From Phytoactinopolyspora mesophila (lineage in GTDB: Bacteria; Actinomycetota; Actinomycetes; Jiangellales; Jiangellaceae): a stretch of DNA of 64,000 nucleotides. The stretch spans positions 323,076-387,075 of the forward strand of contig NZ_WLZY01000002.1 of assembly GCF_010122465.1 (NCBI RefSeq), read 5' to 3'. Shown piece by piece: positions 24,338-31,024 of the stretch (position 1 is its first letter; each line of letters opens with the position of its first letter). The notes under the pieces are model-generated. The model made no database searches and had not been told where the DNA came from. It saw only the letters and a program-made list of their open reading frames with translations. A program made the translations under genes and the position numbers.

Positions 24338-25783
24338 CTACAGCGGGATGTTGCCGTGCTGCCCCCGCCGCTCGGGTGCCTCGGCCAGGGCCCGGCCGAG
24401 CGCGGAGCGCGTTGCCACCGGCTCCACGACCTCGTCCACGACACCAAGCTCCATCGCACGGCTCAGACCACCGGCCACCCGCTCGTGTTCTTCGGCCAGC
24501 TCGGCCTCGACCTGCGAGCGCAGTTCGGGGTCGACCTCCGCGAGCTTGCGCCGATGCAGAATCCGCACCGCTGCCACCGCGCCCATCACGGCCACCTCGG
24601 CCGTCGGCCACGCGAACACGCGGCTGGCGCCGAGCGCCCGCGAGTTCATGGCGATGTACGCGCCGCCGTAGGCCTTGCGGGTCACCAGCGTCACCCTGGG
24701 CACCGTCGCTTCGGCGAAGGCATGCAGGAGCTTCGCGCCACGGCGGACCACACCGTCCCATTCCTGGCCCACACCGGGCAGGTACCCGGGCACGTCGACG
24801 ACCACCACAAGGGGCACACCCAGTGCGTCGCACATCCGGACGAACCTGGCCGCCTTCTCCGCCGACGTCGAGTCCAGGCAACCACCGAGGCGCAGCGGAT
24901 TGTTGGCGATCACGCCTACGGTGCGCTTGCCCAGCCGGCCGAGCGTCGTCGTGATGTTGGGCGCCCAGCGAGCGTGCAGTTCGAGAGCCGTGTCGTCGTC
25001 GAGTAGATCGTCGACGATCGGGTGGACGTCGTAGGCACGTCTGGCCGACTCGGGCAGGTGGCTGCCGAGATCCACGTCGGCGATGCCGTCCACGTCGATG
25101 TCGCCCTGACTACCCAGCAGCGAAGCCAGCTGCCCGGCGCGATCCAGGGCTTCGCGCTCGGTGCTGCTGACTACATGGACAACTCCGGAGCGCCGGCCGT
25201 GCGGCTCGGGTCCGCCGAGACGCAGCATGTCGACGTCCTCACCGGTGACCGAGCGCACGACGTCGGGACCGGTGACGAACACGCGGCCTTCAGGGCCGAG
25301 GATCACGATGTCGGTCAGCGCCGGCCCGTAAGCGGCACCCCCGGCGGCCGGGCCGAGCACCACCGAGATCTGCGGGATCTTCCCCGACGCGCGGGTCATG
25401 ATCTCGAAGATGCGCCCGACGGAATGCAGCGACAGCACACCCTCGGCCAGGCGCGCGCCACCGGAGTGCCAAAGCCCGATGATCGCCACGCCCTCGGTCA
25501 GCGCGCGTTCATACGCCTCTACAACCACCTGGCAGCCGTCGGCGCCCATGGCCCCGCCCATGACCGTCGGGTCGGAGCAGAACGCCACCACGGGCGTGCC
25601 GTGTACGGTTCCGGTGGCGGCCAGCATGCCGCTCGTGTCATCCGGGCTGATCAGCTCCAGGGAGCCGTCGTCCAGCAGAGCGGTGAGCCGGTGGTTCGGG
25701 TTCCGTGGGTCTTGCTCACGAGGGGGCTTGGCGGGTTTGCCGGCCGGCTGAGCCGGCACGGCCCGACCGGCAACCGCGGTCAT
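24338..25783 (-). CDS. Acyl-CoA carboxylase carboxyltransferase (beta) subunit
   Basis: 481 residues. Carboxyltransferase N- and C-terminal crotonase-like lobes: GLWHSGGARLAEGV (oxyanion region), VLGPAAGGAAYGPALTD, then NNPLRLGGCLDSTSAEKAARF, VDVPGYLPGVGQEWDGVVR and RKAYGGAYIAMNSR, all standard in AccD/PccB proteins. It transfers CO2 from biotin carried by a separate alpha subunit to acetyl- or propionyl-CoA. As last gene of the fatty-acid operon it most likely makes malonyl-CoA. No biotin carboxylase subunit is adjacent. The ATG overlaps the fabF stop by one base (TAATG). Confidence 0.9.
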   Translation of the reverse strand: MTAVAGRAVPAQPAGKPAKPPREQDPRNPNHRLTALLDDGSLELISPDDTSGMLAATGTVHGTPVVAFCSDPTVMGGAMGADGCQVVVEAYERALTEGVAIIGLWHSGGARLAEGVLSLHSVGRIFEIMTRASGKIPQISVVLGPAAGGAAYGPALTDIVILGPEGRVFVTGPDVVRSVTGEDVDMLRLGGPEPHGRRSGVVHVVSSTEREALDRAGQLASLLGSQGDIDVDGIADVDLGSHLPESARRAYDVHPIVDDLLDDDTALELHARWAPNITTTLGRLGKRTVGVIANNPLRLGGCLDSTSAEKAARFVRMCDALGVPLVVVVDVPGYLPGVGQEWDGVVRRGAKLLHAFAEATVPRVTLVTRKAYGGAYIAMNSRALGASRVFAWPTAEVAVMGAVAAVRILHRRKLAEVDPELRSQVEAELAEEHERVAGGLSRAMELGVVDEVVEPVATRSALGRALAEAPERRGQHGNIPL

Positions 25784-27042
25784 TACGGCCTCCTGAAAGC
25801 AAGCACAACGTTGTGGCCTCCGAAGCCGAATGCGTTGTTCAGTGCGGCGATGGAGCCGTTGCCGAGTTTTCTCGGTCCGTCGTGAACGACATCCAGGCCG
25901 ATCTGCTCGTCGAGATGGTCGAGGTTGATGGTGGGCGGAACCAGCCCGTGGTGGAGGGTCAACACCGTCGCCATCGCCTCGACGGCGCCGGCCCCGCCGA
26001 GCAGGTGGCCGATCATCGATTTCGGTGCGGTCACCGGGATGCCGGAAATGGCGTCGCCGAAGACCTTGCGCAAGGCCAGGGCCTCCGCGGCGTCACCCAC
26101 GGGTGTGGAGGTGGCGTGGCAGTTGATGTGCGCGACGTCGTTGGGCTGCAGACCACCGTCGTCCAAGGCTTTGCGCGTCGCGGCCATCACGCCGATGCCG
26201 TCCGGCTCCGGTTGGGCAATGTGGTGAGCGTCGGAGCTCATCCCGGCGCCAGCGAGTTCCACGTAGACACGGGCCCCGCGGGCTTCGGCGTGCTCGGCAG
26301 ATTCGAGCACGAACAGTGCGCCGCCTTCGCCGAGGACGAAGCCGTCGCGGTCCTTGTCGAACGGGCGGCTGACGGCGGTGGGGTCGTCGTCGCGCTTGGA
26401 CAGCGCCATCATGTTGGCGAACGCCGCGATCGGCAGCGGATGGATCACGGCTTCGGTCCCACCTGCGACGACGATGTCGGCGCGGCCGGACCGGATCATG
26501 TCCAGGCCGTAGGCAATTGCTTCAGAACCCGAGGAACACGCGCTGACCGGTGTGTGCACACCGGCCCGTGCTTGCAGTTCCAAGCCGACGTTGGCGGCCG
26601 GGCTGTTCGGCATGAGCATGGGTATCGCCAGCGGCGACACCTTGCGTGAGCCATGCGCGAGTAGCTGGTCGTAGTTGCCGAGCAGCGTGTGCAGGCCGCC
26701 GATGCCCGAGGCGCACACCACGCCCAAGCGGTCCGGATCTATGCCGGTTTCCGACGCCTTGCCCTCGAGACCCGAGTCGGCCCACGCCTCGCGCGCTGCG
26801 ATCAGGGCGATCTGCGCCGACCGGTCGAGCCGTCGGGCCTGCACGCGGGGGAGCACCTCAGAGGGGTCGACGGCTACTGGCGCACCGATGCGCACCGGTG
26901 AGTCCGCGACCCACTCCTCGGTCAGGGGCCGCACGCCGGAGCGGCCTGCGAGCAGCGAGTCCCAGGTCGACGCGGCATCGCCTCCGACGGGCGTACTCGC
27001 GCCGAGCCCGGTGACGACGACAGGTACCTGGGAACGTGGCAT
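25783..27042 (-). CDS. fabF: 3-oxoacyl-ACP synthase II
   Basis: 419 residues. Condenses malonyl-ACP with acyl-ACP during chain elongation. Cys-His-His triad: Cys at about 170 in PVSACSSGSEAIAYG, His at about 311 in NCHATSTPVGD, His at about 344 in KSMIGHLLGGAGAVE. It ends with the conserved ALNNAFGFGGHNVVLAF. The active-site Cys segment is ACSSGSEA rather than the usual ACATG, as in several actinobacterial FabF proteins. Co-directional with acpP six bases upstream and accD downstream. Confidence 0.94.
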   Translation of the reverse strand: MPRSQVPVVVTGLGASTPVGGDAASTWDSLLAGRSGVRPLTEEWVADSPVRIGAPVAVDPSEVLPRVQARRLDRSAQIALIAAREAWADSGLEGKASETGIDPDRLGVVCASGIGGLHTLLGNYDQLLAHGSRKVSPLAIPMLMPNSPAANVGLELQARAGVHTPVSACSSGSEAIAYGLDMIRSGRADIVVAGGTEAVIHPLPIAAFANMMALSKRDDDPTAVSRPFDKDRDGFVLGEGGALFVLESAEHAEARGARVYVELAGAGMSSDAHHIAQPEPDGIGVMAATRKALDDGGLQPNDVAHINCHATSTPVGDAAEALALRKVFGDAISGIPVTAPKSMIGHLLGGAGAVEAMATVLTLHHGLVPPTINLDHLDEQIGLDVVHDGPRKLGNGSIAALNNAFGFGGHNVVLAFRRP

Positions 27043-27047
27043 GGTGA

Positions 27048-27299
27048 TCAGGCCTCCGGGCTTGCGTTCTTGATATAGGTCACAGCATCGCCGACGGTGG
27101 CGAGGTTCTTGACCTCGTCCTCGGGGATCTTCACGCCGAACTTCTCTTCAGCGCCGACCACAACCTCGATCATCGACAGGGAGTCGATGTCGAGATCGTC
27201 GGTGAAGGACTTGTCGAGCTGGACGTCCGCGGCGGGAACGCCGGTGATCTCGTTGACGATCTCTGCGAGACCGGTCAGGATCTCTTCGTTGCTGGCCAT
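27048..27299 (-). CDS. acpP: Acyl carrier protein
   Basis: 83 residues, acidic, with the phosphopantetheine attachment Ser40 in DLDIDSLSMIEVV. The flanking SFTDDL and the helix GVKIPEDEVKNLATVGDAV are typical of type II ACP. It shuttles the growing acyl chain among FabD, FabH and FabF encoded beside it. A ribosome site GGAGAA precedes the ATG. Confidence 0.95.
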   Translation of the reverse strand: MASNEEILTGLAEIVNEITGVPAADVQLDKSFTDDLDIDSLSMIEVVVGAEEKFGVKIPEDEVKNLATVGDAVTYIKNASPEA

Positions 27300-27376: not shown

Positions 27377-28393
27377 TCAGGGTACGCGGATCACCTGGCC
27401 GGCGTAGACGAGGCCCGCGCCGAAACCGATGATGAGAGCGAGATCACCACTCTTGGCCTCGCCTGCTTCCATCATCCGCTCGAGCGCCAGAGGAATGGAT
27501 GCCGCCGAGGTGTTGCCCTGCTGGGCGATGTCGCGCGCGATGCCCACGTGCTCCGGCAGTTTGAGCTGGCGGACCATGACGTCGGTGATGCGCATGTTGG
27601 CTTGATGTGGCACAAAGACGTCGAGATCGTCGACGCTGACGCCTGCGGCGTCCAGCGCCTGCTGGGCGACCTTCGACATCTCGTATGACGCCCACCGGAA
27701 CACCGGGTTGCCGTCCATGACCAGATGCGGCATCTCAGGCCCGTCCGCGCCGAACAGGGCTTCGCGCCACTCTTTCTTCTGCCGGATGTGGTTCAGGTGC
27801 TCGCCGTCGGAGCCCCACACCACCGGGCCGATCCCGGCCTCGTCGCCGTCGTTGCCGGCACCGACGACGGCCGCGCCGGCTCCGTCGGCGAAGATGAACG
27901 CCGTCGAACGGTCGTACTGATCAGTGAGGTCTGAGAGTCGCTCGACGCCGATGACGACGACGTGCTGGGCGGTGCCTGAACGGACCATGTCCGACGCCAG
28001 CGACAACCCATAGCAGAAACCAGCACACGCCGCCGAGACGTCGAACGCCGCGGCGTAGTTGGTGCCGAGCTTGTGCGCGATTTCCACCGCGGCGGACGGC
28101 GTCTGATAAAGGTGGGTGACGGTGGAGACGATCACGCAGTCGACCTGTTCCGGCCGGACACCGGCATTGGCCAGTGCCTTGCCGGCCGCCGCGACGCTCA
28201 TGTTGACGACTGTCTCTTCATCGGAGGCCCAGCGGCGGGTCTCGATGCCGGAGCGGGTGCGGATCCACTCGTCGGACGAATCGATCTTGTCGATGATCTC
28301 GTCGTTGGTGATGATCCGGGTGGGCCGGTAGCCGCCGATCCCCAGCACCTTGCTGGCCCGCAGCGACGGGGGAACTGTGATCGAGCCACTCAT
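27377..28393 (-). CDS. fabH: 3-oxoacyl-ACP synthase III
   Basis: 338 residues from the ATG at 28393, which overlaps the fabD stop (ATGA). Starts fatty acid chains by joining acyl-CoA to malonyl-ACP. The catalytic Cys is in DVSAACAGFCYGL (about residue 122), His in FVPHQANMRI and Asn in QQGNTSAAS. N-terminal VLGIGGYRPTRIITNDEI and DEWIRTRSGIETRRWA are diagnostic. In actinobacteria FabH prefers branched or acetyl starters; that preference cannot be read here. Confidence 0.95.
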   Translation of the reverse strand: MSGSITVPPSLRASKVLGIGGYRPTRIITNDEIIDKIDSSDEWIRTRSGIETRRWASDEETVVNMSVAAAGKALANAGVRPEQVDCVIVSTVTHLYQTPSAAVEIAHKLGTNYAAAFDVSAACAGFCYGLSLASDMVRSGTAQHVVVIGVERLSDLTDQYDRSTAFIFADGAGAAVVGAGNDGDEAGIGPVVWGSDGEHLNHIRQKKEWREALFGADGPEMPHLVMDGNPVFRWASYEMSKVAQQALDAAGVSVDDLDVFVPHQANMRITDVMVRQLKLPEHVGIARDIAQQGNTSAASIPLALERMMEAGEAKSGDLALIIGFGAGLVYAGQVIRVP

Positions 28394-29574
28394 GATGCGA
28401 CCGCCTCCGGGTGAAGCCGAACCAACGGTTGTCCCGGAGCGACCGGGTCGCCGTCTTCGACCAGCCATTCCAGCACTGTGCCGCCGTGGTTGGCGTGGAC
28501 GTCTTGGGAATCCCGCAACGAGTTCACGCTGCCGACCAGGTCGCCAGGGGAGAGTTGACTGCCGGCCTTGAGCGAGGCCGCCTTGAACGTGCCCTTCATG
28601 GGTGCGACGACGAGGCGCCAGGTAGGGCTGTCGGTCATGGGACTCGGGTCGCCGTGCTTCTCGACGAACTTCCGGGCGTCGTCGAGCTGGTCGGGCGTCT
28701 TCAGCGCGAAGGTCTCGATGCCGGGCAGGGCGCGGCGGGCAAGGCCACTGAGGGTCCCTGCCGGCGGCACTTCGAGGAGGCCCGTGATGCCGAGGTCGGA
28801 CATCGTGGTCTGGCAGAGGTCCCAGCGCACGGGGTTGGAAACCTGCTCGACGATGCGGTTGAGGACATCGCGGCCGTCATGAACCACGTGGCCGTCCCGG
28901 TTGGACAGCAGCCGCGTACGCGGATCGCGGGTGGTCATGGCGCTGGCGTAGTTACGCAGTGTTTCCACCGCGGGGGCCATGTGGTGGGTGTGGAAGGCGC
29001 CGGCGACCTGGAGCGGGCGTAGCCGGGCTCCCTCCGGAGGGTCTTCCTTCAGCGCGTCCAGCTGGGCCAAGGTGCCGGCGGCGACGATCTGACCAGCACC
29101 GTTGACGTTGGCCGGGGTCAGCCCGTGCTTCTCCAGGACCTGCAGGACATGTTCGGTGTCGCCGCCCAGGACGGCCGTCATGCCCGTGGGGGTGGTGCTG
29201 GATGCTTGGGCCATAGCGCGTCCACGCTCCCGGACGAACACCATCGCCTGCTCGGCGGTGATGACGCGGGCACCGGCCGCGGCGGTGATCTCGCCGACGC
29301 TGTGTCCGGCGACCGCGGCGACTGTGTTGAATGCGTCGGCAGGCTGCGGGAACAGGGCTACGGCAGCGACCAGGCCCGACGCGACCAGCAGTGGCTGTGC
29401 GATGGCGGTATCGCGAATGGTGTCGGCGTCGGCCTCGGTTCCGTAGTGGACCAGGTCAACCTGGGCGACCGCGGAGAGCCACTCGATGCGGTTGGCGAAA
29501 GCCGGCTCCTCCAGCCAAGGGGCGAGGAAGCCTGGAGTCTGGGAACCCTGTCCGGGCGCGACGATGACCAACAC
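28390..29574 (-). CDS. fabD: Malonyl-CoA:ACP acyltransferase FabD with C-terminal biotinyl-like domain
   Basis: 394 residues, about 80 longer than classic FabD. The acyltransferase core has VIVAPGQGSQTPGFLAPW at the start, the nucleophile Ser at about 91 in GHSVGEITAAAG and the active-site His in GAFHTHHMAPA. From about residue 313 a second domain begins, with VVAPMKGTFKAASLKAG and, at the end, HANHGGTVLEWLVEDGDPV and PGQPLVRL, the hammerhead layout of biotinyl/lipoyl domains. The usual AMKM biotin site is replaced by SLRDSQD, so it should not be biotinylated. It may be a docking or structural domain. First gene of the operon, downstream of fasR. Confidence 0.9.
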   Translation of the reverse strand: MLVIVAPGQGSQTPGFLAPWLEEPAFANRIEWLSAVAQVDLVHYGTEADADTIRDTAIAQPLLVASGLVAAVALFPQPADAFNTVAAVAGHSVGEITAAAGARVITAEQAMVFVRERGRAMAQASSTTPTGMTAVLGGDTEHVLQVLEKHGLTPANVNGAGQIVAAGTLAQLDALKEDPPEGARLRPLQVAGAFHTHHMAPAVETLRNYASAMTTRDPRTRLLSNRDGHVVHDGRDVLNRIVEQVSNPVRWDLCQTTMSDLGITGLLEVPPAGTLSGLARRALPGIETFALKTPDQLDDARKFVEKHGDPSPMTDSPTWRLVVAPMKGTFKAASLKAGSQLSPGDLVGSVNSLRDSQDVHANHGGTVLEWLVEDGDPVAPGQPLVRLHPEAVAS

Positions 29575-29676
29575 CCTTCCAGCCTGCTCGTTACCGGTCC
29601 GTAGGAGCGTCGATCACGCTCACAAGGTCTTCCTAGTAACTTTGGGCGGTTCCCACAAAAGCGCCACCCGCTCCCC

Positions 29677-29764
29677 AAATGATCATGTTTGGTGGGTTTT
29701 CTCGTGCACCACCATGCCTGCAGGCTTGTCAACGCACACGAAAACCCACCAAACATGATCATTT
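29677..29764. terminator. Long hairpin with 24-bp perfect arms between fasR and fabD
   Basis: AAATGATCATGTTTGGTGGG plus TTTT (29677-29700) is repeated exactly inverted at 29741-29764, around a 40-nt loop that includes CCTGCAGG. It follows the fasR stop by nine bases and precedes fabD by about 100 bp. It may separate the two transcripts. The outer TGATCAT matches two other hairpins of this window. Confidence 0.85.
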
Positions 29765-29773
29765 AGGGGAGCG

Positions 29774-30949
29774 TCAGTCGGAGTGGGGTGGGTCCAGGCG
29801 GCCGAGCGAGAGCGCGATGCGCAGCGTGTATGAGTCGCGCGCGTCGGTGGGTGTGAGGCCGACGACGTCGGTCACCCGGCGCAGCCGATACCGCACCGTG
29901 TTCGGATGCACGAACAGGAACCGCGCCGCGGCCTCGACCGAGGCGCCGGTCTCCAGGTATGCGGCGAGCGTCTCGAGCACCACCGGCCCTGCCTCAGCCA
30001 CCGGCAGATAGACCTCGGCAATGAGCTCCCGGATCGCATCGGCATCGCCGGACAGCGCACGCTCGGGCAACAGCGCCGACGCCGCCACCGGCCGGGGTGC
30101 CTCCGGCCAGCCGTCAGCCGCCACGAGCCCGGAGACCGCGGCTCGCGCCGACACAGCGGCGGACACCAGGTCAGGCACCAGGGGGCCGACGATCACCGGA
30201 CCCGGACCGAAATGGCTGATCAGGCATTCGGCCGCGCGTACCGGGTCCTCGACGCGTCCCAGGACCGCTACGAGCCGATCTCCCTGCACGCCGGTGAGCA
30301 CGTCGTAACCCGCCTTCCGGGCGCTGCGCCGGATGTCATCGACGGTGTTGTCTCTGACCGCAGGGGGACGGCCGATGGTGACGACGACGCCGCTCTGAGC
30401 GGTCCAGCCCAGGGCAGAGGCGCGAGAACGTACTCCTTCGTCAACTTCGCCGCGCAGAAGCGAGTCGACGACGGTTGCTTCCAGCCGGGCATCCCACGAA
30501 CCACGTGCTTCGGCATAACGCGCGTACACCTGGGCGGCGGAGAAGGCGACCTCCCGCGAATACCGTAGGACGCCTTCGAGAACGGCCGGCGCGTCGTCGT
30601 CGCCCACCACGTCGACGACGTTCTCCTCGACTACCTCGATGGCCACCCGGACGACCTCGACGGTCTGCTGCAGGCTGATCGCCCGGATCAGGTCCCGGGG
30701 CGCGGTGCCGAAGATGTCCGTGGTGGGCGACGGGCGGGCGTGCTGTGGGTTCCGGTACCAGTCGACGAACGCCGCGATGCCGGCCTGGATGAGCAAGCCG
30801 ACCCAGGAACGTTGCTCTGGTGGCATTGCCCGGTACCACGAGAGCTCCTCCTCCATTTTGGTGATCGCAGTGGTGGCCAGCGGGCCAGTCGCGCGTTCGA
30901 GCAAGTGGACAGTACGTTCGTGACGCTTCGTGTCGCGGCGTGCAGACAT
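29774..30949 (-). CDS. fasR: PucR-type transcriptional regulator of fatty acid synthesis (FasR-like)
   Basis: 391 residues from the ATG at 30949. The N-terminal two thirds resemble the PucR/CdaR-type regulatory region (ELSWYRAMPPEQRSWVGLLI near the start), and the C-terminus has the PucR helix-turn-helix LETGASVEAAARFLFVHPNT followed by VRYRLRRVTDVVGL. In Streptomyces coelicolor a protein of this kind, FasR, is encoded directly upstream of fabD and activates the fab operon; the same order here supports the name. It is separated from fabD by a long hairpin. Its own promoter should lie in the gap to the divergent membrane protein gene. Confidence 0.85.
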   Translation of the reverse strand: MSARRDTKRHERTVHLLERATGPLATTAITKMEEELSWYRAMPPEQRSWVGLLIQAGIAAFVDWYRNPQHARPSPTTDIFGTAPRDLIRAISLQQTVEVVRVAIEVVEENVVDVVGDDDAPAVLEGVLRYSREVAFSAAQVYARYAEARGSWDARLEATVVDSLLRGEVDEGVRSRASALGWTAQSGVVVTIGRPPAVRDNTVDDIRRSARKAGYDVLTGVQGDRLVAVLGRVEDPVRAAECLISHFGPGPVIVGPLVPDLVSAAVSARAAVSGLVAADGWPEAPRPVAASALLPERALSGDADAIRELIAEVYLPVAEAGPVVLETLAAYLETGASVEAAARFLFVHPNTVRYRLRRVTDVVGLTPTDARDSYTLRIALSLGRLDPPHSD

Positions 30950-30990
30950 ATGCGGCAGCGTACGCGGCCGCTCGCCACGTCTGGGAACCG

Positions 30991-31024
30991 CACATTGTGG
31001 TAAAGGCACAATTGCGGTGTTGTG
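30991..31024. promoter_or_regulatory. Repeated CACA/TTGTG half sites in the fasR divergent gap
   Basis: CACATTGTG (30991-30999) and CACAA-N8-TTGTG (31007-31024) lie in the 137-bp gap between fasR and the divergent membrane protein gene. Such spaced dyads could be operator sites, perhaps for autoregulation. Reading by eye; no known consensus is claimed. Confidence 0.3.

Follow-up and report, generated by a model that had tools for sequence, protein, structure and literature searches.

We describe here a fatty acid synthesis operon of Phytoactinopolyspora mesophila in which the malonyl transferase FabD carries a C-terminal tail resembling the biotinyl domains of acyl-coenzyme A (acyl-CoA) carboxylases. 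The operon lies in a stretch of 64,000 nucleotides (contig NZ_WLZY01000002.1, positions 323,076 to 387,075), hereafter the window, and all of its genes are encoded on the reverse strand. The fabD reading frame (28390..29574; GTG start) specifies 394 amino acids and comprises a catalytic part (residues 1-308; 28651..29574), a linker (residues 309-318; 28621..28650) and the biotinyl-like domain (residues 319-394 with the stop codon; 28390..28620). The fabD stop and the ATG of fabH (27377..28393; NF006829, 6.4e-115) overlap as ATGA, and there follow acpP, for the acyl carrier protein (ACP; 27048..27299; NF002147, 4.3e-39), fabF, for ketoacyl-ACP synthase II (25783..27042; NF005589, 476.6 bits against a cut-off of 387) and, four genes downstream of fabD, a gene for the carboxyltransferase of an acyl-CoA carboxylase (24338..25783).

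The catalytic part aligns with FabD of Streptomyces coelicolor (1nm2, 317 amino acids; E 5.7e-107, VIA Z 48.9) and of Mycobacterium tuberculosis (2qc3, 303 amino acids; E 9.6e-80), both of which share this part but are chains without a tail. S92, R117 and H195 are all present, and we take these, after the roles known from E. coli FabD, to be the catalytic residues. The protein falls short of the cut-off of the NCBIfam equivalog TIGR00128 (163.4 against 260.9 bits); the name FabD is kept despite this because of these residues and because the nearest solved structures are FabDs.

A biotinyl domain without its lysine

Scored alone, the C-terminal part exceeds the cut-off of the Pfam family Biotin_lipoyl (25.4 against 22.1 bits), and within the whole protein it lies just under it (21.1 bits); it also matches by sequence the biotinyl domain of the E. 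coli biotin carboxyl carrier protein (BCCP; 1bdo, E 1.6e-4). In an AlphaFold2 model of the whole FabD the predicted local distance difference test (pLDDT) is 91.4 and the predicted template modelling score (pTM) 0.78, with residues 311-318 below a pLDDT of 50. Because of these low values, and because the pTM is close to the share of FabD in the chain (308/394), we read the linker as a flexible tether with no fixed packing predicted. The matches listed by a fold search with the whole protein were FabD-type domains and uninformative on the tail, which was therefore modelled separately. The resulting model (pLDDT 89.6) is a flattened beta barrel with a hairpin, and its best fold matches in the PDB are biotinyl domains by both Foldseek and VIA, with 1bdo at the top (Foldseek 7.4e-6; VIA Z 12.2, root-mean-square deviation 2.2 over 73 residues); the BCCP of the M. 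smegmatis long-chain acyl-CoA carboxylase (LCC) complex is also matched (9yx2; VIA Z 11.4). The tail is thus a confidently predicted biotinyl domain without the lysine, as a sequence-only reading of this DNA had proposed.

The alignment with 1bdo runs without a gap across the hairpin, so that R354 (codon CGG, 28513..28515) takes the place of the biotinyl lysine; it is followed by D355 and sits at the hairpin tip between predicted strands 346-351 and 356-360. A seven-residue stretch of the E. coli BCCP, which we take to be the thumb, is missing from the tail in the same alignment. The set of fused FabDs comprised 57 class-wide rows and 80 rows from named records, 137 in all, of which 128 were distinct after removal of nine duplicates. 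Position 354 is arginine in 117 of the 128, a gap in one and lysine in none, and the biotinylated lysine in an MKM-type motif that marks a functional BCCP is therefore absent from the window protein and from the whole set. Among 126 distinct fused FabDs compiled earlier, W319 was kept in 124, R320 in 125, E369 in 126, W370 in 123 and D376 in 125, and the tail contains a conserved acidic strand that reads E369-W370-L-V-E373-D374-G-D376. Residues so strictly kept, R354 among them, indicate conservation and not decay. In fold and in the position of the hairpin the tail is like the biotinyl domains of AccB and AccA, and it differs from them in its missing lysine and in the conserved pairs R354-D355, E369-W370 and H388-P389. 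The genome itself holds five further matches to the tail: three are of the biotin type and keep their lysine (EVMKLM, EAMKMEQ and ESMKMEI), and the other two lie in a single lipoyl-bearing E2 protein, in which the lipoyl DKV lysines are retained.

The fusion is present in the close relatives of the organism, as the sequence-only reading required, and is widespread in the class. Within the order the whole protein is matched in 22/22 genomes; in one of these (G018) fabD falls into two frames 31 bases apart, and a natural split gene was rejected there since the intervening bases are all N. Within the class the tail profile was matched at E 1e-9 or better in 93 of 296 genomes. One match, a frame of 171 amino acids (G067), is not a FabD and was excluded, leaving the tail in 92 of the sampled genomes and in 25 of 41 families, a count that includes two genomes (G218 and G274) in which the tail stands at a contig edge, separate from FabD. 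In a sample of 296 genomes from the phylum, every tail match that scored more than 45 bits came from within the class, and among the 30 loci returned by the phylum search the only ones to score as FabD (L128-L130) likewise belong to it. The named set consists of 80 loci among the matches listed and, having been gathered by similarity to the fused protein, is biased; the named carriers among those matches include Jiangella, Phytoactinopolyspora, Nocardioides, Actinopolymorpha and Streptomyces sp. RPT161. On a FastTree tree of FabD and FabF, the fused row of this Streptomyces groups as sister to rows of the Streptomyces type that have no fusion. We infer that family f17 of our sample is Streptomyces-type and family f4 mycobacteria-type.

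Some observations on this distribution stand apart. Two records, titled as metagenome-assembled genomes (MAGs) of Bifidobacterium breve (L108, 67% identity) and Sphaerobacter (L068, 69%), hold an actinobacterial fused FabD and look like misassigned MAGs. A plasmid search with the tail returned one weak match (38% identity) in a Nonomuraea record of 11.9 Mb. Eight class genomes of one genus, g27 of family f22 (G042, G104, G113, G209, G225, G233, G249 and G257), gave no FabD match at E 1e-20 among the best six candidates per genome; the same family contains genera with a fused FabD, and g27 is possibly a lineage with type I fatty acid synthase.

Co-occurrence of the tail and AccD6

The carboxyltransferase of the window, which the sequence-only reading had placed in the operon as an acyl-CoA carboxylase subunit, scores 643 bits against M. 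tuberculosis AccD6 (4fb8, E 2.3e-192), with S. coelicolor PccB next at 400 bits (1e-118), and judged by sequence it is an AccD6 orthologue, closer to AccD6 than to AccD5/PccB. Its GGAYI aligns with the GGAYI of 1xnw, a site that we presume to determine the choice of substrate.

For comparison across the class, 120 regions around fabD were spread by hand over the families, and a FabD hit was obtained in 119 of them (none in L270, the region of G218). An accD adjoins fabF in 48 of the fused operons, is absent from four and is cut off in five, as against 25, 36 and one, respectively, of the unfused operons. In the named set of 80 an accD adjoins fabF in 71 loci, stands without a scored fabF in one, is absent from one and is cut off in seven. 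Independent pairs were contrasted by a sign test on the FabD and FabF FastTree tree of 125 rows, in which gain and loss are indistinguishable. Taken from the fusion, accD changed the same way in 7.2 and the opposite way in 0.6 of 13 pairs (median p 0.039, range 0.008-0.29); taken from accD, the fusion changed the same way in 7.0 and the opposite way in 0.3 of 16 pairs (median p 0.016, range 0.008-0.125).

The possibility that accD6 has merely moved elsewhere was examined in 30 class-sample genomes, out of the 40 in which no operonic accD6 had been scored, with AccD sought at E 1e-90 or better, and it was rejected: 29 of the 30 hold no AccD above 51% identity. A relocated AccD6 occurs in G098 (58% identity), and a short AccD of uncertain type, at 46-47% identity, is present in G248 and G200. 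Absence of accD6 from the operon usually reflects loss of the enzyme, not relocation.

A linkage of this kind might also be left by history. The tail could be the remnant of an old BCCP fusion with no present function, its linkage to AccD6 reflecting only the shared ancestry of an operon that is decaying in some lineages, and this would agree with accD6 being usual in fused operons and often missing from unfused ones, with the loss of tail and accD6 in overlapping lineages and with the erosion of some tails (L232, L163 and L164). We nevertheless consider it very improbable, since residues that the fold does not demand are strongly conserved over 25 families, including in small genomes of 1.4-1.7 Mb (G025 and G048), and since R354 itself erodes in four class-sample cases in which the operon has no AccD6.

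Paired changes in the tail and in a loop of AccD6

These four (L173, L175, L205 and L213, from three families) are all of the fused loci in the class sample without operonic accD6, and R354 is lost in 4/4; in fused loci with accD6 it is kept in 43/48. A corresponding change is seen in the carboxyltransferase. We scanned AccD for positions at least 90% conserved in the 48 fused rows and less than 60% conserved in the 25 unfused rows, and found eight such positions, six of which fall inside the 15 residues 184-198 (VDMLRLGGPEPHGRR; 25190..25234; permutation p 1e-5), which we propose as a receptor or partner site of the tail. R188 (25220-25222) is present in 44/48 fused and 1/25 unfused rows, and GRR or ARR at 196-198 in 48/48 and 6/25. 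The same scan of five controls (FabD, FabH, ACP, FabF and PucR) gave no such cluster. Among the 72 named loci with an AccD, 64 are absent from the class sample, and R188 together with GRR or ARR is found in 64/64 of these. In G098, where the tail is degenerate and AccD6 relocated, R188 is lost and 196-198 reads GRK. Outside the main loop, H254 (0.92 to 0.24) and V403 (0.92 to 0.48) of AccD likewise shift between fused and unfused rows.

The co-occurrence and joint change of tail and accD6, the loss of R354 where operonic accD6 is missing and the change of the AccD6 loop where the tail is missing together support docking. Biotinyl domains swing on a linker and are recognised by carboxylase subunits; one without its lysine could not carry CO2 but could still dock. 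We consider it probable that the tail is a non-biotinylated, flexibly tethered docking module that binds AccD6, the carboxyltransferase of acetyl-CoA carboxylase, and so holds FabD beside its source of malonyl-CoA. FabD, as the first user of malonyl-CoA, would thereby be kept at the enzyme that produces it, and the purpose of the tether would be to hand malonyl-CoA locally to ACP. From the comparisons we infer physical binding, with R188 and G196-R197-R198 of the loop as the contact site, and the hand-over; that the acidic strand E369-D376 of the tail faces the arginines of AccD6 is a guess. FabD has the tail in many actinobacteria, and the tendency of the tail to be lost or altered together with AccD6 suggests that it may be a plug joining two enzymes.

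A mimic of the biotin carrier that could dock the carboxylase and pass on malonyl-CoA directly had been proposed by the sequence-only reading, and this is partly supported. Docking is favoured by the co-loss with AccD6 and by the loop change, as a matter of comparison; binding at the BCCP site, which the word mimic implies, is a part of that proposal that need not hold. In a cryo-electron microscopy structure of propionyl-CoA carboxylase (PCC), as described in excerpts of its report, BCCP contacts loops 292-294 and 340-344 of the C-terminal carboxyltransferase (C-CT) domain (PMC10148081). The marked loop of AccD6 lies in the N-terminal half and not among the C-CT loops so described, so that docking need not take place where BCCP binds. 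Possibly the arm attaches alongside and leaves the BCCP site free, a fitting arrangement if the carboxylase is not to be obstructed.

The position of the loop is also one of several points that weigh against docking on AccD6. R354 is lost in 5/48 fused FabDs despite the presence of accD6, and in one of them (L232) the hairpin is deleted; conversely R354 is retained in L039, a locus closely related to the window, though the genome there shows no AccD6, which we take as a recent loss of AccD6. Of the 61 unfused loci that could be scored, 25 have AccD6 but no tail, and the tail is to that extent dispensable. In L240 the tail is gone, no remnant of it being found, and the AccD loop is unchanged, and four fused loci (L210, L211, L272 and L273) carry S, I, T and K at AccD 188. 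When R188 is contrasted with the fusion, 4.9/6 pairs change the same way on the FabD and FabF tree, 2.4/3 on the AccD tree and 3.9/5 on a five-gene tree in which two long rows (L245 and L246) are possibly joined falsely; for GRR the values on the same trees are 3.6/6, 1.9/3 and 2.3/5. None is opposite in either case, but with so few independent events these contrasts cannot reach p 0.05. Lastly, in a mirror-tree comparison of pairwise distances over 69 operons the partial correlation of tail with AccD is -0.12.

Several of the eroded tails belong to one family, f14: the hairpin is deleted in L232, R354 is lost in L163 and L164, and the tail is gone from L240 and L243, and AccD6 is kept in all five. 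This is a family with the tail in the process of erosion.

The same mirror-tree gives partial correlations of 0.46 between tail and FabD, the highest for the tail, and 0.30 between tail and PucR, and could be taken to mean that the tail serves its own enzyme, packing on or swinging over FabD for stability or for the docking of ACP or malonyl-CoA, with an indirect link to AccD6. W32 of FabD has a frequency of 0.94 in fused proteins, 0.24 in unfused ones with accD and 0.11 in those without, and H307 one of 0.98, 0.40 and 0.72. A role within the FabD chain remains improbable in our judgement: correlated distances are expected anyway within one gene, the linker is predicted to be flexible, and the co-loss of AccD6 and the change in the AccD loop are left unexplained. 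In the scan of FabD for a patch on which the tail might dock, W32 and H307 shift but do not cluster; they may mark a resting place of linker or tail. In FabH, D271 (numbered from the ATG at 28393) falls to 0.14 in unfused operons with accD.

Known systems and significance

The main rival to docking for hand-over is a role in assembly or control, in which the tail, like plant BADC or actinobacterial AccE, would be non-catalytic glue or a competing pseudo-BCCP that sets the activity of AccD6, coupling the level of FabD to the assembly of the carboxylase with no need for any hand-over of substrate. It explains the same linkage to AccD6, and it has a precedent. BADC proteins are described in excerpts of PMC11926652 as separate plant proteins, relatives of BCCP without the biotinylation motif, which bind BCCP and the biotin carboxylase (BC) subunit of plastid acetyl-CoA carboxylase (ACCase) and assemble or inhibit that enzyme. 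As far as that account goes, the FabD tail is like them in being BCCP-like without the motif and in being tied to acetyl-CoA carboxylase, and unlike them in that it is an actinobacterial tail fused to FabD and linked to AccD6, not a separate subunit of the plant ACCase. Mycobacterial AccD6, moreover, showed no interaction with AccE, and the holo complex is unclear, according to a partial view of PMC4347857. We think such a role rather unlikely, as the 25 loci that retain AccD6 without the tail show that assembly does not strictly require it and as glue needs no fusion to FabD.

The type II fatty acid synthase (FAS-II) operon of M. tuberculosis offers a second comparison. Its AccD6 is orthologous to that of the window, and we take the gene order from fabD to accD6 and the presence of a MabR-type regulator to be common to the two; the differences are that FabD is unfused and that the loop of AccD6, ASLGGPETHHKK, has neither R188 nor GRR. 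In the window a PucR-type regulator (29774..31009, reverse strand; PF13556, 4.3e-19; PF17853, 8.3e-13), presumably MabR/FasR-like, lies upstream of fabD. The space between the two holds a near-perfect palindrome (29673-29768) of two 48-nucleotide arms, 81% complementary and without a spacer. This element of about 100 bp has at least 80 matches genome-wide at 77-100% identity among the 40 candidates that were scored out of 91; most places enter twice, once for each strand, which gives at least about 40 places. It is like a member of a repetitive extragenic palindromic (REP) or miniature inverted-repeat transposable element (MITE) family.

The combination of FabD with a biotinyl domain can be read from Pfam-type scans, and lysine-less relatives of BCCP are known in plants; in the open-licence literature we found no description of the FabD-biotinyl fusion or of its link to AccD6. 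Bacterial acetyl-CoA carboxylase and FabD are not known to act as a complex.

Returning to the docking of the tail on AccD6, a wider picture may be offered tentatively, as one that we hold to be possible and not yet probable. Wherever an actinobacterium combines AccD6 with a fused FabD, fatty acid synthesis would begin with two steps joined in one physical unit, in which a pseudo-biotinyl arm sits on the AccD6 loop (R188 and G196-R197-R198) and malonyl-CoA is passed within one complex; lineages of the Streptomyces type would have lost arm and AccD6 together, and those of the mycobacterial type would be armless and differ in the loop of AccD6. A natural fusion that exchanges biotin chemistry for docking, with candidate residues named on both sides, would make the carboxylase-FabD complex directly testable. 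If true, it would be a bacterial, enzyme-fused counterpart to the plant BADC proteins and could explain the organisation of the poorly understood AccD6 carboxylase outside the mycobacteria.

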